DNA from: Spirochaetia bacterium
Lineage (GTDB): Bacteria; Spirochaetota; UBA4802; UBA5550
Length of the DNA stretch: 64,000 nucleotides
Assembly: GCA_009885955.1 (NCBI GenBank)
Contig: VFJS01000001.1
Span: 1 to 64,000, forward strand
Direction: 5' to 3'
The notes beneath the pieces are model-generated. The model made no database searches and was not told the origin of the DNA. It was given only the letters and a program-made list of their open reading frames with translations. Numbering within the stretch: the first letter of the stretch is position 1; each line of letters begins with the position of its first letter. The position numbers were made by a program, and so were the translations under genes. This document shows positions 140 through 22,393 of this stretch, piece by piece.

Positions 140-1876
140 TCACCAGTTGAACACCTGGTCAAGCTCCTTGTCCGTTACGTTGAAAGTCACATTGTGCGGC
201 GGCAGCTTTTCCGTGTAAAAGTAGCGCGGCAGCCTGTCATGCTCCTTGGTAAACCCGGCACCGGCATTGAATTCACGCTCCATTTTCAGGATTTTTTTCC
301 CCAGTGCCACCACATCATCCCCTGTCAGGTTTAACCCGTAAAAGGAGTTGAGGAGGTCGATGAGCGCCTGGAACGTCTCCGGCTGATCGAGTATGGCAAA
401 GGCTATGAAGAGGCACATACCCGTTGCATCGATGGCAGCAGTGGCAATCTGAAGATTTCTGGAGAGTTCTATCTGCCCGTCGGGCTTGAGGGGGTCTACG
501 AACCCGCCCACTTTCAGTATATTGGTTGCAACGGCATACCCCGAGGTATGGTCCGCGCCCATGGTTGTGGTTGCATAGGTAACACCGATCCCCTGAACCG
601 CCCTGGGGTCATAGGCAGGCATGGCCTGCCCTTTTACAACCGGCGCCCTCTCTATCCCGAAGGCCTTTGCCGTGAATGCCGTTCCGTTTCCCAGGATCCT
701 TCCCATGGGGGTCCCTTTTCCCACTTCCTTTATGAGGTTGATAGCGGCAGCGGCATCGCCGAATTTTGCTATGCCGGCCTCCATGGCCACGGCAATCGTT
801 GCCCCCATCTCTATGGTGTCGATGCCGTAGTTGTCATCGAGGAAGTCCATCATGGCAATGGAATCCAGGTCATCAATTCCGCAGTTCGCGCCGTGGGCCC
901 AGACCGTCTCGTATTCCGGCTGTTTGGTGAGGAATTTCCCGTTTTTGTCATTGTAGGTCCCGGAGCACTGGATGACGCACCCCCGGTGGCATCCATGGGT
1001 TGCCAGCCCCCCCCTCTTCACTTCAAGTTCGGCCTGGGTCTCGCCGCTTATTTTTGACGTACCGGCGAAGGTGCCGCTTGAGAAATTGTTCGTGGGGTAT
1101 CCGCCGGCTTCATTCAGTATATTCGCAAGTACATTGGTACCGTATGCAGGGAGGGCCTCCCCGGTGACAGGGTGCTTTTTCAGGCCATCGGTAAAGACCT
1201 TGTTCGCTGCCTTGAATTTTTCCGGATCCTTGGGGGTCCTGTTGCTCAGGCCCTTGTCTTCCAGGATTATCACCTTTACGCCTTTGGATCCCATGACAGC
1301 GCCCACCCCTCCGCGTCCGGCGTGCCTCGTGGGCCGCACCTCCATATCGGTGCAGGCGATAGTGGCCGCGCTCATCTTCATCTCCCCTGCAGTGCCTATG
1401 GATAAGCAGGCAATTTTATCGCCGTATATTCCCTTCATTTTTTCAATGAGATCATAATTGGGAAGCATCTTCAGGGAGTTGTCCTTTTCGACTTCCACCT
1501 TGTCCTTTGAAATATAAATTTTATAGAGGTCGTCGCCGGCGGGCTTCCCTTCAAGCACTATTGCCGCGTACCCGAGCCTGGCCAGCACCTGGGCAGCCTG
1601 GCCTCCCGAATTGGCCTCCTTGATTCCTCCCGTGAGCGGACTCTTGCAGCCGATGGAAAGCCTCCCGGACATTACAGCCGCGGTACCGCTCAGCATCCCC
1701 GGGGCTATTACAAGCTTGTTTTCTGCTCCCAAAGGATGGCTCAGCGGATGCACCTCTTTTGAAATTATTGCCGACGTCAAGCCCCTCCCCCCCAGTCCTG
1801 CGTAGCCTCCAATGGGCTCTTTGCTGACTTTCGGGGAATCCGGCGCGCTGAAATTAATTCTTAAAATAAATTCCAT
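140..1876 (-). CDS. aor: Aldehyde:ferredoxin oxidoreductase (tungstopterin enzyme)
   Basis: This is a 578-residue protein of the AOR family. Such enzymes oxidise aldehydes to carboxylic acids, or run in reverse, and exchange low-potential electrons with ferredoxin in the cytoplasm. The N-terminal pterin-binding domain is clear (GYAGLGGRGL at about 24-33; GRLSIG and GGIKEANSGG at about 71-92). The [4Fe-4S] ligands appear as C296-x3-C300-x3-C304 with a fourth cysteine at C488. The GADHTSGYA segment at about 440-448 is typical. The start is supported by a strong AAGGAGGT box just upstream of the ATG. Length is normal for this AOR subgroup. It is transcribed away from the histidine kinase and Ehr genes; a link with Ehr through ferredoxin is inference. 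The true aldehyde substrate cannot be read from the sequence. Confidence 0.93.
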   Translation of the reverse strand: MEFILRINFSAPDSPKVSKEPIGGYAGLGGRGLTSAIISKEVHPLSHPLGAENKLVIAPGMLSGTAAVMSGRLSIGCKSPLTGGIKEANSGGQAAQVLARLGYAAIVLEGKPAGDDLYKIYISKDKVEVEKDNSLKMLPNYDLIEKMKGIYGDKIACLSIGTAGEMKMSAATIACTDMEVRPTRHAGRGGVGAVMGSKGVKVIILEDKGLSNRTPKDPEKFKAANKVFTDGLKKHPVTGEALPAYGTNVLANILNEAGGYPTNNFSSGTFAGTSKISGETQAELEVKRGGLATHGCHRGCVIQCSGTYNDKNGKFLTKQPEYETVWAHGANCGIDDLDSIAMMDFLDDNYGIDTIEMGATIAVAMEAGIAKFGDAAAAINLIKEVGKGTPMGRILGNGTAFTAKAFGIERAPVVKGQAMPAYDPRAVQGIGVTYATTTMGADHTSGYAVATNILKVGGFVDPLKPDGQIELSRNLQIATAAIDATGMCLFIAFAILDQPETFQALIDLLNSFYGLNLTGDDVVALGKKILKMEREFNAGAGFTKEHDRLPRYFYTEKLPPHNVTFNVTDKELDQVFNW

Positions 1877-2320: not shown

Positions 2321-4444
2321 ATGCATAATCCGGAAAAAAACAGTGGGCTAATACCCAATACCGGGATACCCCCGGGAAATGAAGGGGAAAGCAGGGAAGA
2401 TCTGCTCAGGGAACTCTCAATTCTCAGGGAACATGTCCGTAAACTTGAGAAAATCGACGGTGAACTGAAGATTGAGGTTACCGTCCTCAGGGACCTTGTT
2501 AACCTTAACCGTAACATATTTGAGCACAGTAAAATAGGCATCTGGCAGATAAACCAGGAGGGAAATACCGTACTGATAAATCCTGCCATGTGCGATCTTC
2601 TTGAAATTAAATCCCCCCTGGACATCATAGGCAAGAACTATCACTCCTTTTTCACCGAAGAGAGCCTCAAGTCGATAAAAATCGGGGGCGGCAATCAGAT
2701 CGAAAAGTTCTCTTCCAGATTCGAGGTGGAAATGATAACAATAAAGGGGAGGCGGCGTTTCATGGAGATGCTGGGCCTTCCGCTTTTTTCCAGTGAGGGC
2801 AAGGTCTATAGCCTCCTCGGCACCTTTATTGATATAACGGATCGCAGGGATGCGGAGGAGAGGCTCAGGGAATCGGAGGAGAGATACCGTTCCATCCTTG
2901 AAAACATTGAGGAGGGATATTTTGAGGTGGACCTTGCCGGCAACTATACTTTTTTCAATGATGCTGCCGCAAATATTTTCGGTTACACCAGGGATGAACT
3001 CCAGAAAATGAACAACCGTGACCTGAGCACTCATGAGATGTCCAGGAAGATGTTCGTGATTTTTAACCAGGTCTACCGGACAGGGGTTCCGGCCAATCTC
3101 TTTGACTGTGAGATAATCAGGAAGGATGGAACTATAAGGTCCCTTGAGTATTCCGCGTCGCTCATGCTTCATTCAGGAAAATATCCGCTGGGGTTCCGGG
3201 GTATTATACGGGATATAACCGACAGGAAAGCGGTTGAAAAGGAATTGAAGGAGGCCAGGGAGAAAGCGGTTTACGCGTCAAAGGCCAAGAGTGAGTTCCT
3301 GGCGAGGATGAGCCATGAAATAAGGACCCCGATGAACGGCATCATGGGAATGACAGAACTTGTCCTTGAAACTGAGCTGAATCCCGAACAGATGGATTAT
3401 CTCCTCACCGTAAGGGAATCGTCGGAGCATCTGCTGAAAATCATAAATGACATCCTGGACTTTTCCCGGATCGAAGCAGGGAAGATAGATATCATCCCCG
3501 CTGACTTCAGCCTCCAGTACATGATGAATTCAATTGTCAAGCTGCTGAAGATCCAGGCAATCAAAAAGGGCCTGGACCTGGAAATTTCAATCGCCGGCGG
3601 CATACCTCCCTATCTTCATGGTGATTCCGCAAAGCTGAGGCAGATCCTCGTTAACCTTATAGGCAATTCGATAAAATATACCGATGAAGGGAGCATTCAC
3701 ATATCAGTCAATTATGCCGATGAAAAGGCGAAGAAGAGCGACCCCGCGGCATCTCACGTGACCCTTCTTTTTTCAATCAGGGACACAGGTATCGGGATCC
3801 CTCAGGATAAAATCAAGACCATATTCGAAAGCTTCGGGCAGGCCGATGTCTCATTTTCCAGGAGATTTGGCGGCACTGGACTGGGACTGGCCATCAGCAA
3901 ACAGCTGGTTGAGCTCATGGGGGGGATGATCTGGGTTGAGAGCAGGGTCGGAGAAGGTTCGCAGTTTAATTTTATTGTGACCCTGAAAACTGCCAATGCC
4001 ATTGAGGAAAGAAAGGAGACGGCCGTGGATAAGGGACATATTCACCAGGCTGAACCTCTTGCCATACTCCTTGCCGAAGACAATGTAATTAATGTCAAGA
4101 TGGCATCAGCCATTCTCAGGAAGGCAGGGCACCAGGTTGAATGCGCCATTAATGGAGTGGAGGTTTTGAAAAAATTGAGTGAAGGTTCCTATGACCTCAT
4201 ATTCATGGACATAGAAATGCCTGTCATGGATGGGCTGGAAGCGGCAAAACGGATACGTTCCGGCGAGGCGGGAGTCCAGAACAGTGAAATTCCCATATTC
4301 GCCATATCGGCCCATGTGCTGTCCGAGGTGAGGGAACTGTGCAGGGATGCGGAAATGAACGGTTTCATAGCAAAACCTGTTAACAAAAAGGACCTTCTCT
4401 CAGCAAGTTCCAGCGTTATGGGAGAACGTTTCAAAATTCTGTAA
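2321..4444 (+). CDS. Soluble PAS-PAS hybrid histidine kinase with receiver domain
   Basis: This 707-residue hybrid sensor kinase has no membrane segment or signal peptide, so it should sense a cytoplasmic signal. Domains in order are: an N-terminal coiled coil (about 25-55); PAS (about 58-180); a second PAS ending in [12 protein letters not shown] (about 185-305); HisKA with phospho-acceptor H332 in an [10 protein letters not shown] box; HATPase with a DTGIGIP and GGTGLGLAI signature (about 425-560); and a C-terminal receiver whose phospho-acceptor is D630 in [11 protein letters not shown]. There is no output domain or HPt, so the phosphate must pass to a separate protein not seen here. It stands 150 bases before the HTH-EIIA regulator on the same strand. 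A role in controlling the Ehr genes is possible but only inferred from position. The ribosome binding site is weak. Confidence 0.93.
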
Positions 4445-4600: not shown

Positions 4601-5269
4601 ATGGATCTTAAAATTAAGGATATCGTTGAATTATTCAACGTTCCGGAAAAGACTATTATTCAATGGATAAAAGAGAGGGGCATGCCCTCTCATAAGATCA
4701 AAAACCAGTACTTCTTCAACAAGGCAGCTGTCAGCGAATGGATACTCTCAAGCAATATTGCCGTATCGGAAAATATTTCAAACCTGAGCCTGACGAACAA
4801 GCCTGTATCAATATCAAAACTCATAAAAAAAGGGGGGGTGTTCCACAACATCCAGGGGAATACCATCGGCGATATTATAGGAAACATTGCAGATGTCATC
4901 AACATTCCCGAAGGCCTTACAAAGGAAACGGTGAAGGCATCCCTTCTGCAGAGGGAGGAGTTGATGTCCACGGCCGTGGGCAACGGGATTGCCTTTCCTC
5001 ATCCGAGGAATCCCATCATATCGGATATAGATGAGGAGGGGATTTCAATCTGTTTCCTTGCGCACAGGATCAATTACAATGCCATGGATAAAAAGCCCGT
5101 GGGCATCCTGTTCATCATCATATCCTCCAATGCCAAAAGGCACCTGGAGATCCTTTCAAAGATTTCCTTCCTTTGCCGCGATGAGGATTTTATCCGGCTG
5201 CTGCAGGGTGAACCCGGGACCGATGAATTGTATCATTATATTGATATAAAAGAAAAGGAATGGGCATAA
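4601..5269 (+). CDS. HTH (excisionase/MerR-like)-PTS EIIA (PtsN-like) fusion regulator
   Basis: The protein has 222 residues. The first 50 (DLKIKDIVELFNVPEKTIIQ onward) form a MerR/excisionase-type helix-turn-helix, ending in the usual YFFNKAAVSEWI wing. A linker leads to an EIIA fructose/Ntr-type domain from about residue 75 to the end, with the phospho-acceptor H134 in GIAFPHPRNP. The EIIA family is phosphorylated by HPr/NPr and often acts as a regulatory switch rather than in sugar uptake. The gene ends 7 bases before the first Ehr gene, so it is probably the first gene of that operon and a candidate phosphorylation-dependent regulator of it. No other PTS component occurs in the window. 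Fusion of the two domains is seen; the regulatory role is inferred. Confidence 0.85.
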   Translation: MDLKIKDIVELFNVPEKTIIQWIKERGMPSHKIKNQYFFNKAAVSEWILSSNIAVSENISNLSLTNKPVSISKLIKKGGVFHNIQGNTIGDIIGNIADVINIPEGLTKETVKASLLQREELMSTAVGNGIAFPHPRNPIISDIDEEGISICFLAHRINYNAMDKKPVGILFIIISSNAKRHLEILSKISFLCRDEDFIRLLQGEPGTDELYHYIDIKEKEWA

Positions 5270-5276
5270 CAGAGCC

Positions 5277-7256
5277 ATGGAATTGTTTTTTTATCCCCTG
5301 GCAGTCATCGTATCCGGCGGATTGATATCCCTGTTCCTTCCGGAAAAATTCAAAGGGGCCGCAGTCTCCCTTGCCGCGGGCATCGGCATGGTCCCCCTGG
5401 TATATCTTTCACTGGAAGTAATCAATTCGGGAAATGCCATGGGGGCAGCAGCGGACTTTTCCTATCCCATCGGCACCGTGAATTTCGCCATTGATCCGCT
5501 ATCGTCTTTCTTTATCATCCTCATATCCCTTATGAGCTTTATCGGATCCATCTATTCAATGGAGCATACGAAGATGTATCACGGGAAAGGGAAGGGGCTT
5601 TCCTCTCATTTTTTCTTTTTGTCCCTGCTCATTGCATCCATGCTGCTCCTGGCAGCTGTGCAGAATGCCCTGCTTTTTCTTGTTGTATGGGAGGTCATGT
5701 CCTTCTCATCGTACCTCCTCATGACCTTCGAGAATGAGAAGGACGGGGTTTATAAAGCCGGAATAAATTATCTCATCTCCATGCATGTGGGGGTCATCTT
5801 TCTTATGAGCGGTTTTGCCGTGCTTGCCGTAAAGACGGGGAGCTATGATTTTAACTCATTCAGATCAGTACTGGAACAGGGGGACCTGGAATCCGTCGGT
5901 ATTTTTTTTCTCATCTTCGCAGGGTTCGGGATGAAATCGGGATTTATCCCCCTCTATACCTGGCTTCCCGGGGCATACTCTGCCGCTCCGGCCCATGTTT
6001 CGGCAATCATGTCCGGGGTCATGAAAAAAACCGGCATCTATGGAATTTTCAGATTTATCGTGCTCATGAAAATTCCCCCTCCCGAAATAGCCTTCATTAT
6101 CCTGGCTATCTCCCTTATTACCGGAATAACAGGCGTTGCCTATGCCGTTGTACAGAAGGATCTGAAGAGGGTCCTGGCCTACAGCTCCATAGAGAATATC
6201 GGTATAGCCGGAACCGGCATGGGCCTGGGCCTCCTGGGGCTTGCCTACGGCAAACCTCCCATGGCGGTACTGGGATTTACCGGGGCCCTCATCCATGTCT
6301 TCAACCATTCCATATTCAAGCCGCTCCTCTTTTTTTCAGTAGGGAATATATTCGCCAGAACCGGCAGTGTCAACATGGAGAAGCTGGGAGGACTCATTAA
6401 GCCCATGGCCTTTACCGGCCTGTCATTCCTCATCGGCTCCCTTGCCGTATCGGGGCTCCCGTTCTTTAACGGCTTTACCGGAGAATTCATGATCTACTGG
6501 TCCATGTTTTCAGGCCTGTCAAAGGGTGAACCGTTCCTTTCAATTATCATGATAGTCTCCCTGGCAGGCCTGGCTTCCATAGGCGCCATGGCAATCATCT
6601 GTTTTACCAGGGCCTTCAGCATAACCTTTCTCGGCAGCCCCAGGAGCAGTTATGACATGACGCCTGAAAATCCCGGACTTGCGTCAAGGCTTGTATTTTC
6701 CATCCAGATATTTTTCATTGTCATCATAGGAATCTTCCCACAGTACGTGTTCATGTTTACCGGAAAAATAGTATCATCCTTTATCCCGGCCGGCCATGCT
6801 GCCGCCATCCCGGGTTATTTCAGCGCTCTGGGTTCTCTGTCTTCTGTGCTCTTTATTTTTCTCGCCGTAGTATCGATCCTTTTTATTGCGCGGTTCAGGC
6901 TTCTCCGGCACAGGGCCCCGTCATCTTTTAAAACATGGGACTGCGGTTACCAGGCCGGCAATACACGGATGCAGTACACCGGCTCCTCCTTTGCGGCGCC
7001 ATTCATGAAGATATTGAGGCCCCTATACAGCCTGACGGTCAGGATAGACAGGCCTGCCGGGCTTTTCCCGGACCGGGGGGGTTACGATTCAACGGTAGAG
7101 GATAACCTTGAAAAAAGGGTGATCTATCCTGTCATCAATGGGCTGAATAAATTTCTCAATGCCTTCACCTGGATCCAGAGCGGCAGCACGCAGCAGTACA
7201 TCATGTACGGCCTCCTTTTTTTAATCGCGACGGTCATATGGATCATGGCTGCATGA
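5277..7256 (+). CDS. ehrA: Ehr complex membrane subunit A (HyfB/NuoL-like antiporter subunit)
   Basis: This 659-residue, highly hydrophobic protein of the proton-conducting Q/M (NuoL/M/N, MrpA/D) family has roughly 15 or more predicted membrane helices. The family's ion-channel residues are visible: a membrane glutamate in VVWEVMSFSSYLL (about 140-152) and lysines in GFGMKSGFIPLYTWLPGAY and SGVMKKTGIYGIFR (about 220-260). The C-terminal TWDCGYQAGNTRMQYT segment is typical of HyfB. It should be one of the ion-pumping modules of the complex. Its stop codon overlaps the next start by 4 bases (ATGA), which points to translational coupling. Ehr naming is used because the large subunit lacks nickel ligands; letter assignments follow gene order and are less certain. 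Confidence 0.9.
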   Translation: MELFFYPLAVIVSGGLISLFLPEKFKGAAVSLAAGIGMVPLVYLSLEVINSGNAMGAAADFSYPIGTVNFAIDPLSSFFIILISLMSFIGSIYSMEHTKMYHGKGKGLSSHFFFLSLLIASMLLLAAVQNALLFLVVWEVMSFSSYLLMTFENEKDGVYKAGINYLISMHVGVIFLMSGFAVLAVKTGSYDFNSFRSVLEQGDLESVGIFFLIFAGFGMKSGFIPLYTWLPGAYSAAPAHVSAIMSGVMKKTGIYGIFRFIVLMKIPPPEIAFIILAISLITGITGVAYAVVQKDLKRVLAYSSIENIGIAGTGMGLGLLGLAYGKPPMAVLGFTGALIHVFNHSIFKPLLFFSVGNIFARTGSVNMEKLGGLIKPMAFTGLSFLIGSLAVSGLPFFNGFTGEFMIYWSMFSGLSKGEPFLSIIMIVSLAGLASIGAMAIICFTRAFSITFLGSPRSSYDMTPENPGLASRLVFSIQIFFIVIIGIFPQYVFMFTGKIVSSFIPAGHAAAIPGYFSALGSLSSVLFIFLAVVSILFIARFRLLRHRAPSSFKTWDCGYQAGNTRMQYTGSSFAAPFMKILRPLYSLTVRIDRPAGLFPDRGGYDSTVEDNLEKRVIYPVINGLNKFLNAFTWIQSGSTQQYIMYGLLFLIATVIWIMAA

Positions 7257-8182
7257 TCATGATAGTGAAAGCGGTAAACCTGGCTCTTCTTTTCCTTCTC
7301 CCTTTTTTCTTTGCAGGCCTCATAAACAGGGTCAAGTCCCGGCTTTCCGGAAGGATGGGCCCGCCGATACTGCAGCCGGTGAAGGACTTTGTAAAGCTCA
7401 TGAAAAAGAGCGAGGTCATTAGCGTATCCACCTCACTTGTTTTCATCATAGCGCCGTCCATCACGCTGGGTTCGGTGATCGTAGCGGGCCTCCTTGTCCC
7501 CATGTCCGGCGGGAGTTCGATCCTCTCCTTTGACGCAGATTTCATTCTCTTTGCCTACTTGCTGGGCCTGGGCAAGTTCTTCTCAATCATAAGCGCCATG
7601 GATACAGGTTCAAGCTTCGAGGGGATGGGGGCCAGCAGGGAGGGTACCTTTGCCGGCCTCGTGGAGCCCCCGTTTTTCATTACCATTGCCTCGCTCGGCC
7701 TCCTCGGGGGCGGGATATCATTTTCAGGGCTCATGAAGATCCCCTTTGGGACCGGGGACCTTACCGGGCTCGTCTTCCTCATGGGCGTGGTTGCCCTGTT
7801 TATCATGGTAATCGTGGAAGGGTGCAGAGTCCCGGTGGATGACCCCAATACTCACCTGGAGCTTACCATGATCCACGAGGTCATGATACTTGACAACTCA
7901 GGCCCGGGCCTGGGGTACCTTACCTATTCGTCGTGGATGAAGATGGTGGTCATGGGCTCAATCATCGCGAACCTGATTATTCCGGAAGAGCTCTATTATG
8001 CCTGGTCACTGCTCCTGTTCCTGGCGGTCATTGCCCTTCTCGCCATGGTCATCGGCATCATCGAGACCGTAATGGCAAGGCTGAGGATGACCCATATACC
8101 GCAGTTCCTGTTTTTCATGACATCCATATCCATCGTCGTCCTTTCCACAATAGTTCTTTTCATCTCGGGAGGCCTGAAGTGA
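7253..8182 (+). CDS. ehrB: Ehr complex membrane subunit B (HyfC/NuoH-like)
   Basis: This 309-residue NuoH/HyfC family subunit forms the membrane anchor between the quinone-site or Fe-S module and the antiporter subunits. About eight membrane helices are expected. Family signatures include SGRMGPPILQPVKDFVKL near residue 32 and the acidic loop EGCRVPVDDPNTHLELTMIHE at about 185-205, which in complex I lines the path from quinone cavity to membrane arm. The start at 7253 is preferred because it overlaps the ehrA stop codon and removes a non-family extension; an in-frame ATG at 7238 is the alternative. The next gene overlaps by 4 bases. Confidence 0.9.
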   Translation: MIMIVKAVNLALLFLLPFFFAGLINRVKSRLSGRMGPPILQPVKDFVKLMKKSEVISVSTSLVFIIAPSITLGSVIVAGLLVPMSGGSSILSFDADFILFAYLLGLGKFFSIISAMDTGSSFEGMGASREGTFAGLVEPPFFITIASLGLLGGGISFSGLMKIPFGTGDLTGLVFLMGVVALFIMVIVEGCRVPVDDPNTHLELTMIHEVMILDNSGPGLGYLTYSSWMKMVVMGSIIANLIIPEELYYAWSLLLFLAVIALLAMVIGIIETVMARLRMTHIPQFLFFMTSISIVVLSTIVLFISGGLK

Positions 8183-8814
8183 TCCCGCTGATAATAATAC
8201 TTTTCGGCGTTACCATGCTCTACGTGTCATCGGCGTCCCGTATTGAGAGCTATATCAAGGCGCTGAACATGCAGGGGTTCCTTCTCCTTCTCCTTGTCGT
8301 CTTTGATTACGGCACCATCCATATAGAGAGTTTCATCTTTCTCTGTTTTGAAACGCTTGTAGTCAAGGCCATAGCCATCCCGCTTTTTATAACGCATATC
8401 ATAAGGAAGAACGGCGTGTACCGGGAGGTTGACCCCAACGTGACAAGCAGGTTCTCCATCATTGTAACCAGCATTATTTTTGTTATGGGATTTTATTTTT
8501 CCTTCTGGGCCATTGATAAGGTGGACAATATACGCCCGTTTTACTTTGGAATTTCCATATCCACGATGGTGGCCAGCATCTTCATCATCATTACCCGGAA
8601 AAAGATCATAACCCATGTCATGTGCTACATGATGCTTGAAAACGGGATATTTCTCCTTGCCCTCTCCATTGCCAGGGAGATGCCCTTCATTGTCGCCTTC
8701 GGAATGCTCCTCGATATATTCATTGCCATATACCTCTTCGGACTGTTTGTAAACAAGGTCCAGGATACCTATTCCGAAGTCGATATCACAAAGCTGACAT
8801 CGCTCAAGGACTGA
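8179..8814 (+). CDS. ehrC: Ehr complex membrane subunit C (HyfE/NuoK-like)
   Basis: A GTG start at 8179 overlaps the ehrB stop codon and is preceded by a good GGGAGG box (8166-8171). This gives a 211-residue protein; any longer reading from upstream in the same frame is out of place. It is a small polytopic membrane protein of the HyfE type, with about six or seven helices and a NuoK-like core (conserved glutamates in FETLVVKAIAIP and YMMLENGIF). In complex I relatives these glutamates join the proton path. It belongs to the Ehr operon and lies 4 bases before ehrD. Confidence 0.88.
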   Translation: MIPLIIILFGVTMLYVSSASRIESYIKALNMQGFLLLLLVVFDYGTIHIESFIFLCFETLVVKAIAIPLFITHIIRKNGVYREVDPNVTSRFSIIVTSIIFVMGFYFSFWAIDKVDNIRPFYFGISISTMVASIFIIITRKKIITHVMCYMMLENGIFLLALSIAREMPFIVAFGMLLDIFIAIYLFGLFVNKVQDTYSEVDITKLTSLKD

Positions 8815-8818
8815 TGAC

Positions 8819-10258
8819 ATGATAGAAATTCTTCTCCTCTTCCCGGTTGCCGCCGCCATCCTGATTTTCCTTTTCAACTCCAGGAGGTTCAGCTCGATGC
8901 TCATCCTTCTCTATGCCGCCGTTTTCCTTGGGATATCGGTGATGTTCTGTTTTGAGCCTTACGAATTCACCAGGTATTTCAGGGTGGACCAGCTGAACAG
9001 GCTGTTTCTCATCATACTGGCAGTTATATTTTCAGGTGTGGCGCTCTACAACCTGGGCTCTATGAAGGGGATGAAGGGGATGAAAGGCGCGGAAGAGCCG
9101 GGGAGGAGCCATTCATTCTATTCCATGAACATTCTCCTCTTTGTCGCGTCAATGATCGGAGTCATTTTGTCCACCCACCTGGCCCTCCTATGGGTATTCG
9201 TGGAGGCCTCGACCCTGTCGAGCTCCTATCTCATATACTACAGCCGCACAAAGTCATCACTTGAGGCCACGTGGAAGTACCTTTTCATCTGCTCCATCGG
9301 CATCGCCATTGCCTTTGTGGGGATCATCTTCCTTTCCATGGGCCTGGGAAACCTGGACTCCCTGTTTTTCGACGATCTTCAGAAGAATGCGGCGCTCATA
9401 AACCCCTTCTGGCTGAAGCTCGCCTATCCTTTCATGCTCGTGGGTTTCGGCACCAAGGTGGGTTTCGGCCCGGTGCACTCATGGCTCCCCGACGCCCATT
9501 CCGAATCCCCGTCGCCCATTTCGGCGCTCCTGTCCGGGACACTCCTCAACACCGCCCTGCTGGGCATCATCAGGATAAACAGGGTCATGGACGCGGCGCG
9601 CATGGGCTGGTATACGCAAATGCTCCTTCTTGTCATCGGCTTCATATCAATATTCATCGCGGCAGTCTATATCGTCAATATCAGGAATTATAAAAGGATG
9701 CTTGCCTATTCATCAATAGAAAATATGGGGATCATTGCCATAGGCCTGGGGCTCGGGGGGGCCGGGATTTTTGCCGCGCTGCTCCACACCGCAGCGCATT
9801 CCCTCACGAAGGCATCATTGTTCCTCACGTCGGGGAATATTTTAAAGGTATATGAAACGAAATATATCGGCGAGGTGAAAGGCCTGCTGAAAAAAGACAG
9901 CCTCTCCGGCTGGCTCTGGATATTCTCCTTTGCCGGCATCGTGGGCCTTCCCCCTTTCCCCATATTCCTGAGCGAGTTCCTTATCATTCGGAGCATGTTT
10001 GAAGGGGGCCGGGTCTGGCTTGCCGTGATCTTTTTTCTTCTCCTCACGGTGATCATTGCCGGAATCGGCAGGGCGGTCTTTTACATGACAGGGGGAATAA
10101 GGGAGGGGGATGATATTTCTCTCCGTGCTAAGGGGCTCGGCTTTTATTCCTATGCCCCGCAGATTATTTTTCTTGCCATACTCATACTCATGGGGGTTTC
10201 CATGCCCGATTTCATTTATAACCTGATACAGAGCGCAGTACAATTCATGGGGGTTTAA
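8819..10258 (+). CDS. ehrD: Ehr complex membrane subunit D (HyfF/NuoN-like antiporter subunit)
   Basis: This is a 479-residue NuoN/HyfF-type antiporter-like subunit, the second ion-channel module of the complex. The pump signatures are clear: a membrane glutamate in LLWVFVEASTLSSSYL (about 122-137) and lysine plus WLP motif in GFGTKVGFGPVHSWLPDAHS (about 211-230). Fourteen or so helices are expected. A short three-fold MKG tandem (9-bp unit, about residues 82-90) sits in an early loop; it cannot shift the frame because the unit is a multiple of three. An AAGGA box at 8806-8810 supports the start. Confidence 0.9.
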   Translation: MIEILLLFPVAAAILIFLFNSRRFSSMLILLYAAVFLGISVMFCFEPYEFTRYFRVDQLNRLFLIILAVIFSGVALYNLGSMKGMKGMKGAEEPGRSHSFYSMNILLFVASMIGVILSTHLALLWVFVEASTLSSSYLIYYSRTKSSLEATWKYLFICSIGIAIAFVGIIFLSMGLGNLDSLFFDDLQKNAALINPFWLKLAYPFMLVGFGTKVGFGPVHSWLPDAHSESPSPISALLSGTLLNTALLGIIRINRVMDAARMGWYTQMLLLVIGFISIFIAAVYIVNIRNYKRMLAYSSIENMGIIAIGLGLGGAGIFAALLHTAAHSLTKASLFLTSGNILKVYETKYIGEVKGLLKKDSLSGWLWIFSFAGIVGLPPFPIFLSEFLIIRSMFEGGRVWLAVIFFLLLTVIIAGIGRAVFYMTGGIREGDDISLRAKGLGFYSYAPQIIFLAILILMGVSMPDFIYNLIQSAVQFMGV

Positions 10259-10262
10259 ACCG

Positions 10263-11762
10263 GTGGACAGGATGAACTGGGCCGTAACAAAAAATAACAG
10301 GGTACTTCCTTTAAAGAACATACCGGTGCTGGACATGGTGCAGTTGAGGGACGGTATCATCGGCAAATGCTCCCGGGGGATGAGGCCGATCCTGTTTTTT
10401 GCAGACCGGCGGGAGAAGAGTCCCATGCTCTACGCCGCCCTGGCCGATGATGATAATTCCAGGATACTGGTCTCCTCTGCTGACATATCCACTATAAAGA
10501 AATATAATGCCATCACACCTGCAGTGCCGTCCTTTCACCTGTTCGAACGGGAGCTCCACGAAGAGACAGGCATTGTCCCTGAAGGGCACCCCTGGCTGAA
10601 ACAGGTGAGGTATTCATGGAACAGATTTAACCGCGCCGAAACCATGGAGAACTACCCCTTCTACACAATGGAAGGGGAGGAGATGCACGAGGTTGCAGTG
10701 GGCCCCATACATGCCGGGGTCATAGAACCCGGGCACTTCAGATTTATGTGCCAGGGGGAGGATGTATATCACCTGGAGATACAGCTCGGCTACCAGCACA
10801 GGGGCATGGAAGACCTTTTCGTGAAATGGAAGAAAAAATCGGCCATACACCTTGCCGAGTCCATAGCAGGAGATACGGTCATCGGGCATGCCTCGGCCTA
10901 TGCCGCTGCTGTTGAAACCCTGTGCGGTACAGAAATTTCCCGAAGGGCCCAGTCCATCAGGGCCATTGCCCTTGAGCTTGAAAGGCTGGCCATCCATATC
11001 GGCGACATGGGGGCAATTGCAAATGACGTTGCCTATCTCATAGGAAATGCCGTGTTCGGGGCAACAAGGACAATTGCAATTAATACGCTCCTGGCCATCT
11101 GCGGGAGCAGGTTCGGCAGGAGCCTGGTGCGCGAGGGCGGCGTACTGTATGACATTAGCGCGCCCCTGGCACGGGAAATTAAAACGAACCTGAAAAAAAT
11201 ACATGACGATGTCACCCTCATGGGTGAAACCATGTTCAACTCAGCCGGAGTCCTTTCAAGGCTCGACCATACCGGGACAGTCGATACTGACACAGCAAAA
11301 TCCATAGGGCTTGTGGGCCCCGCGGCCAGGGCCTCGGGTGTACCCCTTGACGTGCGGACTGACCATCCCTTCGGCATATACAGGTATTTCCCTGTGCACA
11401 AACTGGTTCTCTACAGCGGCGATGTCTTTGCCAGGACCTATGTGCGGTACATGGAGGTGAAGCAGTCTATTGATTTTATTTTTGAACAGATCGACAACCT
11501 GCCGGCAGACAAGCCGCTGATTATGGAGACTGGCAGGCAGCAGCCCGCGTGCCTCTCCATATCCATGACCGAGGGATGGAGGGGGGAGATTGTCCATGCA
11601 GCGGTGACCGGGCGGTCCGGGAAAATTGAGAGGTACAAGGTCAAGGACCCTTCGTTCAATAACTGGTACGGGCTGGCGCTTGCAGTCAGGGACAACGGGA
11701 TATCGGACTTTCCGCTGTGCAACAAGAGCTTTAACCTGTCCTATTCCGGGCACGACCTGTGA
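10263..11762 (+). CDS. ehrL: Ehr complex large subunit (NuoCD/HyfG-like) lacking NiFe ligands
   Basis: The 499-residue protein combines a NuoC-like N-terminal part (about 1-140) with a NuoD/hydrogenase large-subunit part. In group 4 hydrogenases the L1 motif is ERVCGICGFAH; here the aligned stretch is ESIAGDTVIGH (E199 onward), with A202 and T205 in place of the two cysteines. The C-terminal L2 motif DPCxxC is replaced by NLSYSG, with S493 and G496. All four nickel ligands are therefore absent, while the conserved histidine after L1 is kept. The protein cannot hold a NiFe centre and fits the Ehr class, thought to interact with a quinone or another acceptor. Translation starts at GTG; an ATG lies three codons in. 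Confidence 0.92.
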   Translation: MDRMNWAVTKNNRVLPLKNIPVLDMVQLRDGIIGKCSRGMRPILFFADRREKSPMLYAALADDDNSRILVSSADISTIKKYNAITPAVPSFHLFERELHEETGIVPEGHPWLKQVRYSWNRFNRAETMENYPFYTMEGEEMHEVAVGPIHAGVIEPGHFRFMCQGEDVYHLEIQLGYQHRGMEDLFVKWKKKSAIHLAESIAGDTVIGHASAYAAAVETLCGTEISRRAQSIRAIALELERLAIHIGDMGAIANDVAYLIGNAVFGATRTIAINTLLAICGSRFGRSLVREGGVLYDISAPLAREIKTNLKKIHDDVTLMGETMFNSAGVLSRLDHTGTVDTDTAKSIGLVGPAARASGVPLDVRTDHPFGIYRYFPVHKLVLYSGDVFARTYVRYMEVKQSIDFIFEQIDNLPADKPLIMETGRQQPACLSISMTEGWRGEIVHAAVTGRSGKIERYKVKDPSFNNWYGLALAVRDNGISDFPLCNKSFNLSYSGHDL

Positions 11763-11774
11763 GGAGAAATTCCG

Positions 11775-12530
11775 ATGTTTGAAATATTCAAGGTGATAAA
11801 AAACCAGGGGTCCCAGGCAATCCCCGATCTGAGAAAGGCCGAGGTTCATTTCCCTTTCCGCGGCCTTCCGTCCATCAAGGAGAGGAACTGCGGGAAGTGC
11901 TCGGCCTGCGCCGATATATGCCCGTCAGGGGCCATCACGCTGAATCCCTGCACCCTTGACATGGGGAAATGCATTTTCTGCGGAGACTGCGAGAGGGCAT
12001 GCGCGGAGAACGCCATTGAATTCTCCAACTTTCACGGGCTCGCGGCAACAGACCGCGAGGGCCTCATCATTGACGGCAGAACCGATAAAATAATATTCCT
12101 CGATAGAGCAATAAAAGTAAGAAATGATATACAGGGGATTTTCGGCAGGTCCCTGAAGCTCAGGCAGGTTTCTGCAGGGGGCTGCAATGGCTGCGAGTGG
12201 GAGCTCAATGCCTGCGGCAATGTGAATTTCGACATGGGGAGATACGGCATAGACATAGTTGCCTCCCCAAGGCATGCAGACGGGCTCCTCATAAGCGGCC
12301 CCATCCCTTCAAACATGGCCAGGGCGCTGGATGATGCCTGGCACTCAACACCGGAGCCGAAGATCGTGATCCTTGCCGGCGCCTGTGCCATAAGCGGCGG
12401 TATATTCCAGGACTCCGTAGCCCTGGACAGGGGATTTTTAGAAAAGTACCCCGTAGATCTCTACATCCCCGGATGCCCGGTCCATCCCCTTGCCGTGGTC
12501 TGCGGGATCATGGATTTTCTGGGGATATAG
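11775..12530 (+). CDS. ehrS: Ehr small subunit fused to a 2x[4Fe-4S] ferredoxin domain
   Basis: This 251-residue fusion of a HyfH-like ferredoxin and a HyfI/NuoB-like small subunit brings electrons to the complex. The N-terminal half carries two cluster motifs (CGKCSACADICP and CIFCGDCERAC, about 37-78). The NuoB-like half keeps all N2-type cluster ligands: C137 and C140 in GGCNGCEWEL, C204 in GACAISGG and C234 in PGCPVHP. So the electron path is intact even though the partner large subunit has no nickel site. A GAGGAGA box precedes the ATG. It is the last gene of the Ehr operon. Confidence 0.92.
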   Translation: MFEIFKVIKNQGSQAIPDLRKAEVHFPFRGLPSIKERNCGKCSACADICPSGAITLNPCTLDMGKCIFCGDCERACAENAIEFSNFHGLAATDREGLIIDGRTDKIIFLDRAIKVRNDIQGIFGRSLKLRQVSAGGCNGCEWELNACGNVNFDMGRYGIDIVASPRHADGLLISGPIPSNMARALDDAWHSTPEPKIVILAGACAISGGIFQDSVALDRGFLEKYPVDLYIPGCPVHPLAVVCGIMDFLGI

Positions 12531-13582: not shown

Positions 13583-14971
13583 ATGAGGTTAAGAAAATCA
13601 GAAATCGGATTAAAAGTCAATAATAATCTCTCGATAAAATTTATAAATCAGGATTTGACCAGTTATGCAGGGCTTGAATTATTAAACAGGTATTTCAGGT
13701 TTATTAAACTGAATTCAAGAATTAAAAATGTAATGAAGCAATTTAAAATAAAAGGAGATTACCCGGGATATAAATTGATCATGCTGCTGATATGCATTAT
13801 CATACTTGGGATTGAGCGGGTATCTCAAATAAAATATTTGCAGGACGATCCCTTATTGAAACGGTTATGCGAATTGAAAAAAATATCAAGCCGACAAACG
13901 ATACTGAGGTTTCTCAAATCATTTACAGATGAGATACTAAAAGGATTAGCTGAATTGAATTCAGAATTGATCACAGATTATTTACAAAAGCTTGGCCTTA
14001 CGACTTTGACAATAGATATAGATGGGACTGTTATTTCAAGCAGGGGTAAACCTGAATTAAGCGCAAAGGGATACAACAATATCAAACGAGGAGCATACAG
14101 CTACTTTCCATTGACGGCATATCTGGCACAGACAGGCCATTTCCTGAAAATTATGAACCGTCCAGGGAATATACATGACAGCAATGGTTCAACGGAGTTT
14201 ATTAAGGAAATTATTTTAAATTTGAAGATTATGATCGGGAATAAAATTCGCATACAAATACGTCATGATTCGGGCTTTTTTGATGAAAAACGCTTTAAAA
14301 TGTATGAAAAAGAGGGTATTGAATACTGTTCAAAGGTTCCATTCTGGCGATACCCAATATTTAAAAACGCTATTTTATCAAAGAACAAGTGGAAAAGAAT
14401 AAATTCAAAGACATCCTATTTTTTCAAAAAAATGAAGCTTGATAACTGGAAAAAGGAACGATTATTTTTAATCATCAGGATTGAGAAGCCGAAAAAAGAA
14501 AGGAAGACGGATTATCAACTCAATTTATTTGAACCCGATGACAGGAGCTATGAGTATTCAGGGATCTGCACTAATATGAATTTATCAGCCAAATATTTAT
14601 TCAAATTTATGCTCGGCCGTTCCGCTCAGGAAAAGGCGATCGGTGAATTAAAGAATGATTTTAATTTTGATAAGATTCCATCGAATTCATATATGGCGAA
14701 CAGCGGGTATCAGCAACTGAGTATGTTGAGCTATAACCTTATGACATCATTCCAGTTAAATGCCCTGGGATATGATAAAACATTCAAAAGGAATTTTAAG
14801 AAGACTCGACACTTTGTAAATTGTGGTATTAAAACACTCCGGTTCTTAATATTTTATAAAGCCGGAATTTTTACCAATTCATCCGGGAAGACTGTACTCA
14901 ATATTTCAAATAATACGGCAACAAAGAATTTGTATGAAAAAATAATGGAAAATCTACCAAAGACTGCTTAA
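13583..14971 (+). CDS. IS1380-like DDE transposase
   Basis: This is a 462-residue transposase of the DDE_Tnp_1 fold. It shows the IS1380-type layout: first acidic residue in TIDIDGTVISSRG (D145/D147), then a KGYNNIKRGAYSYFPLTAYL stretch and RPGNIHDSNG, second acidic residue D229 in RHDSGFF, and the third in QEKAIGELKNDF (E350 or E355), followed by SYNLM. Length is normal for the family and no frameshift is present. The start ATG lies about 100 bases inside the left repeat. The family assignment rests on motif pattern only; IS4-group relatives are the alternative. Confidence 0.88.
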   Translation: MRLRKSEIGLKVNNNLSIKFINQDLTSYAGLELLNRYFRFIKLNSRIKNVMKQFKIKGDYPGYKLIMLLICIIILGIERVSQIKYLQDDPLLKRLCELKKISSRQTILRFLKSFTDEILKGLAELNSELITDYLQKLGLTTLTIDIDGTVISSRGKPELSAKGYNNIKRGAYSYFPLTAYLAQTGHFLKIMNRPGNIHDSNGSTEFIKEIILNLKIMIGNKIRIQIRHDSGFFDEKRFKMYEKEGIEYCSKVPFWRYPIFKNAILSKNKWKRINSKTSYFFKKMKLDNWKKERLFLIIRIEKPKKERKTDYQLNLFEPDDRSYEYSGICTNMNLSAKYLFKFMLGRSAQEKAIGELKNDFNFDKIPSNSYMANSGYQQLSMLSYNLMTSFQLNALGYDKTFKRNFKKTRHFVNCGIKTLRFLIFYKAGIFTNSSGKTVLNISNNTATKNLYEKIMENLPKTA

Positions 14972-21115: not shown

Positions 21116-22393
21116 ATGGAAAATTATTATTTATTTAATTATATAAAAAATAACAGCAGCATTGATGAAAAAATATTCGATGCATTGAAATTTGAACTGG
21201 AACAGAACATTTATTATTATGGTAATCAATTTAAATATCCAAAAGAGAAATTAAAAAAATTTAAAACAAATTATATTAAGCTGTTAGTAAAATTGTTTCG
21301 TGTTTTAATGAATAATAGTTTTAAAAAAAAAATACAGAGTAATAAAATTATTTTTTCGAACGCGTATTTTAGTGTAAATGAAGAATTGAAAAAAATCGGA
21401 TTTAATGTTTGTTCTCCTCCCTGGCTATTGGAGTTCAATAAAGAATATGCTGCTGATTATCACTTGTACAAAAAAATATTGAACATAAGCAAATCTTTCA
21501 GCGACAAGTCATTTTCTGAATTGCTGGAGGAGAAATTTTTGAATGATATAAATGATTTTAAGCATGAATTGAAATCATTTTATTTAAATAGTAATGCCAG
21601 ATCAATTGTTGTACCTAACGATGTTTCCTTCTATGAAAACATATCTCTACAAATATTTAAAGAATTACAAAAACCATCTTTTATATTTCTTCATGGTCTC
21701 CCGGGACGGTATAATAGTATAGATGAAAACAGATCAGATTATTTATTGGTATGGGGTGAAAAAATTAAAGATAATTATATCAAAGCGGGTATTAATAAAA
21801 ATAAAATATTTGTTACCGGACATCCCTATTATCAGAATTGTGTACAGAAAGAATTGAAATTCGGCTTTGACACTATCCTGATTATTACAAAAGCAATGAA
21901 TGGCGCACAGCATAGCGATGGTGTCCGCTTATCTGATCGCGGGAACCTGATTGTATATTTATTGTCCATACAGATTGCATTAAAAAAATTAAATGTCACA
22001 TCTGTCCGTTTGAGGCCTCATCCATCGGAAAATCCTGAATGGTATTATCAATTTATTGATAAAAATTTTTTCATCTTTGATTCGGATACTCTGCATGTGT
22101 CATTAAACAAGTCGAGCCTTGTCATAGGACCCAGTTCAACAGTATTTCTAGAATCGATATACAGAGGAATTAATTACCTGGTTTATGAACCGGTAAAGGA
22201 AAATCTTGATTTAATGAATTATACCCTGGTACCTCCCTTCGACGGTTCCGATTCAAGGGTGCCTCTTGCAAGAAATGAAGAAGAACTCTTCTATTTTTTA
22301 AAAAACAGGATCATTACAGACAGCACGATTTTTAATGATTACATTCAAACCCCCTTTAATATGCATTTTATTAAATCATTGATTAATATATGA
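21116..22393 (+). CDS. Predicted surface-glycan glycosyltransferase (GT-B type), possible nonulosonate transferase
   Basis: This 425-residue protein starts at the base after the pseI stop codon. The C-terminal half is GT-B like: FIFLHGLPGRYNS (about 190-202), a SDYLLVWGEKIKDNYIKAGI strand-helix unit, ITGHP-like VTGHPYYQN, VRLRPHPSENP, and a GPSSTVFLESIYRG donor-binding loop (about 340-353). Such layout is found in CDP-glycerol phosphotransferase-like and sialic/Kdo-type transferases. The N-terminal half is poorly conserved and lysine-rich. Direct coupling with the nonulosonate synthase suggests that it adds that sugar, but the family is not certain. Very AT-rich. Confidence 0.6.
   Translation: MENYYLFNYIKNNSSIDEKIFDALKFELEQNIYYYGNQFKYPKEKLKKFKTNYIKLLVKLFRVLMNNSFKKKIQSNKIIFSNAYFSVNEELKKIGFNVCSPPWLLEFNKEYAADYHLYKKILNISKSFSDKSFSELLEEKFLNDINDFKHELKSFYLNSNARSIVVPNDVSFYENISLQIFKELQKPSFIFLHGLPGRYNSIDENRSDYLLVWGEKIKDNYIKAGINKNKIFVTGHPYYQNCVQKELKFGFDTILIITKAMNGAQHSDGVRLSDRGNLIVYLLSIQIALKKLNVTSVRLRPHPSENPEWYYQFIDKNFFIFDSDTLHVSLNKSSLVIGPSSTVFLESIYRGINYLVYEPVKENLDLMNYTLVPPFDGSDSRVPLARNEEELFYFLKNRIITDSTIFNDYIQTPFNMHFIKSLINI

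Follow-up and report, generated by a model that had tools for sequence, protein, structure and literature searches.

Organization and identity of the operon

The window, that is, the whole 64,000-nucleotide stretch of spirochaete DNA analysed here, contained a seven-gene operon at 4601-12530 on the plus strand, in which hyfBCEFG and a fused hyfH-hyfI gene were led by a gene for an HTH-EIIA regulator (Table 1). The genes were tightly packed, with intergenic gaps of at most 12 bases or short overlaps. Relative to hyf/hyc of E. coli, HyfA/HycB, HyfD and the maturation or assembly genes HycH, HycI and HyfJ were not found, and the operon contained no nickel-maturation genes, that of the maturation protease (HycI) included. 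Both antiporter-like subunits had been described in the initial annotation as keeping their channel residues, and our results agreed with this and extended it to the HyfC/NuoH-like subunit. The conserved ion-path residues were E139, K220, H344, K348 and E403 in the HyfB-like subunit, E143, E194, D201, E208, E214 and E276 in the HyfC/NuoH-like subunit, and E129, K153, K213 and K331 (122/122) in the HyfF-like subunit. The HTH-EIIA gene was the only family-wide operon partner. It stood next to the cassette in almost every one of the 28 loci having it, and in non-Gastranaerophilales loci its place was immediately upstream; its phospho-site His134 was kept in 41/41 copies, and this PTS-type regulator probably tunes Ehr expression. 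Elsewhere in the window, an RNA match to group II introns (Rfam RF00029, 41.3 bits) was present at the edge (23-107), and a transposase-like ORF, recognised by eye at 13583-14971, lay past the Ehr operon and before a cluster of surface-sugar genes.

Table 1. Genes of the operon and sites in its large subunit (window coordinates)
Feature	Position	Strand	Remarks
HTH_17 + PTS EIIA-type-2 fusion regulator	4601..5269	+	Pfam PTS_EIIA_2 3e-24, HTH_17 1e-8; operon gene 1
HyfB-like antiporter subunit, NuoL-type	5277..7256	+	PRK06521 hydrogenase 4 subunit B 1.2e-149
HyfC/NuoH-like membrane anchor, E-channel acids	7238..8182	+	Pfam NADHdh 3e-29
HyfE-like membrane subunit	8179..8814	+	PRK11492 3.7e-17
HyfF-like antiporter subunit	8819..10258	+	PRK06458 1.3e-104
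Large subunit, HyfG/NuoCD type, without NiFe ligands	10263..11762	+	Best PDB match HycE 7z0s_E
E155, counterpart of HycE E193 (beta1-beta2 loop glutamate)	10725..10727	+	Invariant, 93/93
L1 site A202-G203-D204-T205	10866..10877	+	C-x-x-C at the same place in hydrogenases
C-terminal Ehr signature NKSFNLSYSGHDL (L2), runs up to the stop	11721..11759	+	
Small subunit, HyfH-type 2[4Fe-4S] domain fused to HyfI/NuoB	11775..12530	+	N6a, N6b and N2 ligands all present

Energy-converting-hydrogenase-related (Ehr) complexes have been named in Nitrospira, Melainabacteria and Geobacter. The operon had been assigned to this family rather than to the hydrogenases, and the assignment stood: judged by motif, tree, operon content, the absent C-terminal tail and the absence of HypD from most carriers, it is a membrane machine resembling hydrogenase-4 that belongs to the Ehr complexes and not to the hydrogenases. 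In the large-subunit phylogeny, a fully supported branch (100, starred, in two trees) separated all Ehr rows, which included Nitrospirota rows and left out the named Geobacter EhrL, from HycE/HyfG, from the FHL-like and MBH-like hydrogenases of related genomes, and from NuoD. HypD is needed for the NiFe cofactor; it was absent from 38 of the 52 genome handles with Ehr (two genomes apparently being counted twice, G072=G296 and G063=G299), including genomes that were 99% complete. The same cassette was found in 80 loci in one scan of named genomes, distributed over Spirochaetota, Melainabacteria, Lentisphaerota, Ignavibacteriota/Bacteroidota, Omnitrophota, Calditrichota and Nitrospirota. Ehr was present in 38/296 Spirochaetota genomes sampled, and an Ehr match was found in 112/198 Nitrospirota genomes sampled, where the loci read carried the same signature; Ehr has already been published in comammox Nitrospira (PMC10284858). 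Ehr complexes are thus widespread.

The former NiFe site of the large subunit

The large-subunit gene was open throughout in frame 1 and encoded 499 amino acids. Alignment with E. coli HycE/HyfG confirmed the earlier reading of both ligand motifs, with A202 and T205 at the cysteine positions of L1 (ESIAGDTVIGH) and S493 and G496 at those of L2 (NLSYSGHDL-stop). The claim that all four cysteines were lost held for the window protein, but not strictly for all of its relatives, since the variable position 202 was Cys in 34/93 large subunits, mainly those of Gastranaerophilales. The six cysteines of the window large subunit were located at 36, 163, 221, 280, 430 and 486; Cys486 lay seven residues ahead of the L2 position, in a helix, and no further cysteine was found at the pocket. 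The protein ended 3 residues past L2, whereas the hydrogenases of related genomes ran 30-45 residues further, and the cleavable C-terminal tail was absent. That the complex works as a hydrogenase through relocated or non-cysteine ligands, as the cysteines of relatives at position 202 and at position 495 (66/93) might suggest, is therefore very improbable: T/S205, S493 and G496 were fixed as non-cysteines, the maturation tail was missing, and most carriers lacked HypD.

The residues that replaced the ligands were strongly conserved. G203, D204, N487, K488, L492, S493, Y494, G496, D498 and L499 were invariant across 93 large subunits, and position 205 was T or S in 92/93; except for G203, Y494 and D498, the invariant residues were mostly unlike those of hydrogenases. 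Together they made up a metal-free motif, GD[T/S] with NKSFNLSYxGxDL at the extreme C-terminus. HycE E193, to which E155 corresponds, is a glutamate near the hydrogenase NiFe site (PMC9474812). The structure model of the large subunit (pLDDT 88.8, with low confidence at 495-499 and in the loop 149-154) had the E. coli formate hydrogenlyase large subunit 7z0s_E as its best solved match (TM 0.87), which was also the best sequence match (2.9e-49). The invariant new motif and the intact frames in over 90 loci imply that the ligand loss was due neither to chance nor to decay. Although the loss of catalytic residues is what a decaying, functionless pseudo-hydrogenase would present, these same features and the low dN/dS refute it at the family level and leave it a negligible chance here. 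By alignment, the NiFe site is a conserved metal-free pocket.

A pocket of this kind could also belong to a complex-I-like quinone reductase that passes electrons from ferredoxin to menaquinone and pumps protons, since the subunits are homologous to NuoCD/NuoB, and since two complex I-type clusters and UbiA-family genes occur in the genome. Against it, the quinone residues H38 and Y87 of Nqo4 were missing, the beta1-beta2 loop reading GPIHAGVIEPG and the Tyr position being G203, and the NuoB-type subunit had the hydrogenase-type CxxC instead of the tandem CC. The UbiA family, used here as a proxy, was absent from Ehr genomes that were 99, 96 and 91% complete while present in 14/14 controls; the carriers without it included a 61%-identical Brevinematales relative with the full Fe-S set. 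Quinone as a general Ehr acceptor is unlikely, and we regard the quinone reductase as improbable for this complex. The two complex I-type clusters of the genome (L025 and L026, G000:C55) were neighbours, one with NuoE/F/G-like genes and the other with about 11 genes and without them.

The Fe-S wire and its loss in relatives

As initially annotated, the small subunit retained all 12 Fe-S ligands of N6a, N6b and N2. Within the clade of the window copy, the N6b-type ligands were kept in 86/86 members and the N2-type ligands in 81-82/86 (about 95%), and the entrance cluster N6a was degenerate in about half. Beyond what had been annotated, our results showed that this electron wire is not universal and that copies without N2 are kept by selection. 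The four ligands of the proximal cluster (N2) were lost in four separate lineages, the tree needing four changes and its starred branches forcing four. The first comprised a second Ehr cassette of the same genome (L024; G000:C31, about 101345-108678), whose large subunit was 45% identical to that of the window, and its relatives (L032-L035), with D-A/C-D-N at the ligand positions; L024 itself retained one of the four N2 cysteines (D-C-D-N), and one row was gapped at the fourth ligand. The second was a second spirochaete family with N-V/G-E-D (L149-L154, and L181 by sequence reading), and the others were a Meiothermus-group plasmid with T-D-E-S (L127) and a Mycobacterium branderi plasmid with N-D-D-A (L173). 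The Allomeiothermus plasmid record of L127 (pMESIL01) also carried, at 21491-22294, a second copy 100% identical to the N2-less small subunit.

In Rhizobium, Azospirillum, Variovorax copy 2, Cupriavidus, Rhodococcus and Nitrospira types, N2 was kept and the ferredoxin domain was absent; this branch retained the pocket signature. No Ehr copy without both N2 and the ferredoxin domain was seen among the copies read. Across the aligned Ehr complexes, then, the electron wire is not conserved. The electron relay of FHL proceeds in steps under 14 A (PMC9474812), and by analogy the distance from the remaining cluster to the pocket in the N2-less copies should be too great for electrons to be passed on usefully. 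Nothing on N2-less Ehr was found in the open-access papers searched, among which most subscription papers are missing.

The N2-less copies were not decaying. Pairwise dN/dS was 0.01-0.12 in both N2-less clades for which it was computed, one being the DADN-type paralog clade and the other the second spirochaete family, demonstrating strong purifying selection in both. The pocket motif of these two clades shared 70-90% identity with that of the window, compared with 31-49% over the remainder of the protein. The ion-path residues of HyfB, HyfF and HyfC were kept nearly throughout the N2-less copies. In the Meiothermus and Mycobacterium rows, pocket identity to the window was 55% and 30%, so that the motif was weaker or lost, and the argument from N2-less copies therefore draws chiefly on the two spirochaete clades. 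A selected N2-less copy that shares a genome with a fully wired one provides a natural control by which a redox pump could be told from a non-redox ion machine.

An altered proximal cluster is also found in MBS, which likewise is related to MBH, has antiporter subunits and lacks the NiFe site. MBS retains two of the four NiFe cysteines and has a shortened proximal-cluster motif in which only three Cys bind (PMC7684303). An MBS-like sulfane-sulfur reductase is nevertheless a rather remote prospect here, since the window protein had 0/4 of the cysteines, its CxxC spacing was hydrogenase-like, and several Ehr complexes were without the cluster.

Gene neighbourhoods

In the second spirochaete family, a bicarbonate-type transporter, SulP and/or SbtA, was encoded immediately downstream of the N2-less Ehr in 7/7 loci, the seventh of which (G075/L181) was fetched as a test after the pattern had been noticed and fitted it; PII-like and LysE-type genes were present in some of these loci. 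An OFA-type MFS gene, for a formate/oxalate-type transporter, adjoined L027, whose large subunit was 67% identical to that of the window, and OFA-type genes were also found beside L033/L035. In many Gastranaerophilales loci (L081-L121), an FNT formate/nitrite transporter gene lay divergent from Ehr, upstream of ehrB, and an MHS-type MFS gene was located 37 bases upstream of the L024 cassette on the same strand. In a Burkholderia multivorans plasmid, a fluoride riboswitch (L172, 4971-5041) preceded a distant Ehr-like operon by about 235 bases within a fluoride-gene island, and the N2-less copy of M. branderi (L173) sat in a similar island. The window contained no fluoride riboswitch, so the fluoride link of these distant relatives does not extend to it, and no transporter gene adjoined the window's own operon. 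Transporter neighbours varied by lineage, and the remainder of the main clade had almost none; they are lineage-specific and suggestive of an anion theme.

Candidate redox partners were also sought. The window carried an aldehyde:ferredoxin oxidoreductase (AOR) family gene (140-1876, minus strand) divergent from the operon region, which was rejected as electron donor because no AOR occurred at any other Ehr locus, and a hybrid kinase (2321-4444) was rejected because it was not conserved. A dedicated dehydrogenase was rejected too, no redox partner recurring among the neighbours of 88 + 54 genes; formate dehydrogenase (FDH) genes lay upstream of Ehr only at L033/L035.

Proposed function

The complex had been expected still to pump ions, with an unspecified electron acceptor. 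Its full Fe-S set fits this expectation, which is unproven and is weakened by the N2-less relatives; it is only one reading, and a pocket that handles a proton or small anion without electrons is at least as likely. Since N2 was lost in four lineages while the ion path, and in two clades the pocket, stayed under selection, a redox acceptor at that site cannot be the function of the whole family, whose role may lie outside redox chemistry altogether. The window copy keeps every Fe-S ligand, so a redox acceptor at the pocket may still be its own function.

In its classical form, such a redox-driven pump would take electrons from reduced ferredoxin or formate dehydrogenase through N6a, N6b and N2 to an acceptor at the old NiFe pocket and export ions. 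The 12/12 ligands here and the retention of N6b and N2 in the clade argue for it, as do the FDH-Ehr complexes proposed in the literature (PMC6349859). In Geobacter, Ehr was more abundant on formate (PMC7894505), a response that also fits a redox partner and counts against a non-redox explanation. The pump is in turn weakened by the lack of a dedicated dehydrogenase or acceptor gene recurring beside the cassette, by the four N2 losses with the pump, and in two clades the pocket, kept under selection, and by an N6a that is degenerate in about half of the clade; we place it somewhat short of even odds.

The explanation we favour, at a probability of roughly 0.5, is an Ehr complex whose metal-free pocket handles a small anion and is mechanically coupled to ion movement. 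It is consistent with the loss of N2 from copies that kept the pocket and the ion path, with the ferredoxin-less branch, and with the anion-transporter neighbours, and it explains why pocket and pump outlasted the loss of the wire. The sequences, tree, selection and neighbourhoods are results, and the substrate, coupling and regulation are inferences. The pocket would consist of E155, D204, T205, N487, K488, S493, Y494 and D498. It would bind a small molecule and add a proton to it or remove one; the most probable ligand is a C1-type anion of a weak acid, for example bicarbonate or formate. Neither a Zn site nor any other site of carbonic-anhydrase type was recognised in this pocket. This chemistry would be coupled mechanically to ion movement via HyfC/B/F. 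In the window copy, reduced ferredoxin would enter at the N-terminal clusters and probably drive or modulate the cycle, by analogy with cyanobacterial NDH-1MS, in which ferredoxin oxidation is coupled to CO2 hydration; in complexes without the wire, ion gradients alone would drive it. There is precedent in DAB2 and NDH-1MS, where CO2 hydration is driven through a proton path like that of complex I (PMC13144422). The conservation of N6b and N2 in the clade of the window copy nonetheless indicates that the wire is selected in most members, for which a purely non-redox job is insufficient. We lean slightly to the non-redox reading for the family; the window copy may follow either.

A bolder version is doubtful: Ehr complexes would not be oxidoreductases at heart, the pocket handling a proton-linked small anion, the Fe-S wire being optional, and the SulP/SbtA-linked members forming an undescribed system of inorganic-carbon uptake. 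No link between Ehr and bicarbonate was found in the open-access papers searched, among which most subscription papers are missing. If the non-redox reading is true, Ehr would be a complex-I relative that needs no electron transfer to work, and it might offer a new route of bicarbonate or formate handling.

Comparison with known systems

With DAB2 and NDH-1MS, the complex would share a complex-I-type proton path serving non-respiratory CO2 chemistry, the link running only via the neighbours of its relatives; no homologs of DabA or CupA/B and no carbonic-anhydrase-type subunit were found among the operon's Pfam/NCBIfam matches. MBS of Pyrococcus is, like the window complex, a NiFe-less complex-I-like machine with antiporter modules, but the window complex shares neither its two NiFe-site cysteines nor its three-Cys proximal cluster. 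Respiratory complex I has a homologous NuoB/CD/H/L-M-N core and E-channel, whereas the window complex is without the quinone-binding His/Tyr, has no NADH module in its operon and carries CxxC, not CC, at N2. The best match in both sequence and fold is E. coli hydrogenase-4/formate hydrogenlyase (group 4a), which has the same membrane subunits; relative to group 4a, the window complex lacks the Ni ligands, HyfA/HycB, HyfD, HycH/HycI/HyfJ and the tail, and its H and I subunits are fused. The Ehr complexes of Nitrospira, Melainabacteria and Geobacter share with it the HyfB/C/E/F/G/I-type subunits and the missing NiFe cysteines, and the Nitrospirota loci also share the GD[T/S] and NKSFNLSYxGxDL signature. 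In contrast to the Nitrospira type, which is without the ferredoxin domain, the small subunit of the window has a fused 2[4Fe-4S] domain, and its operon differs from those of known Ehr in beginning with the HTH-EIIA regulator.
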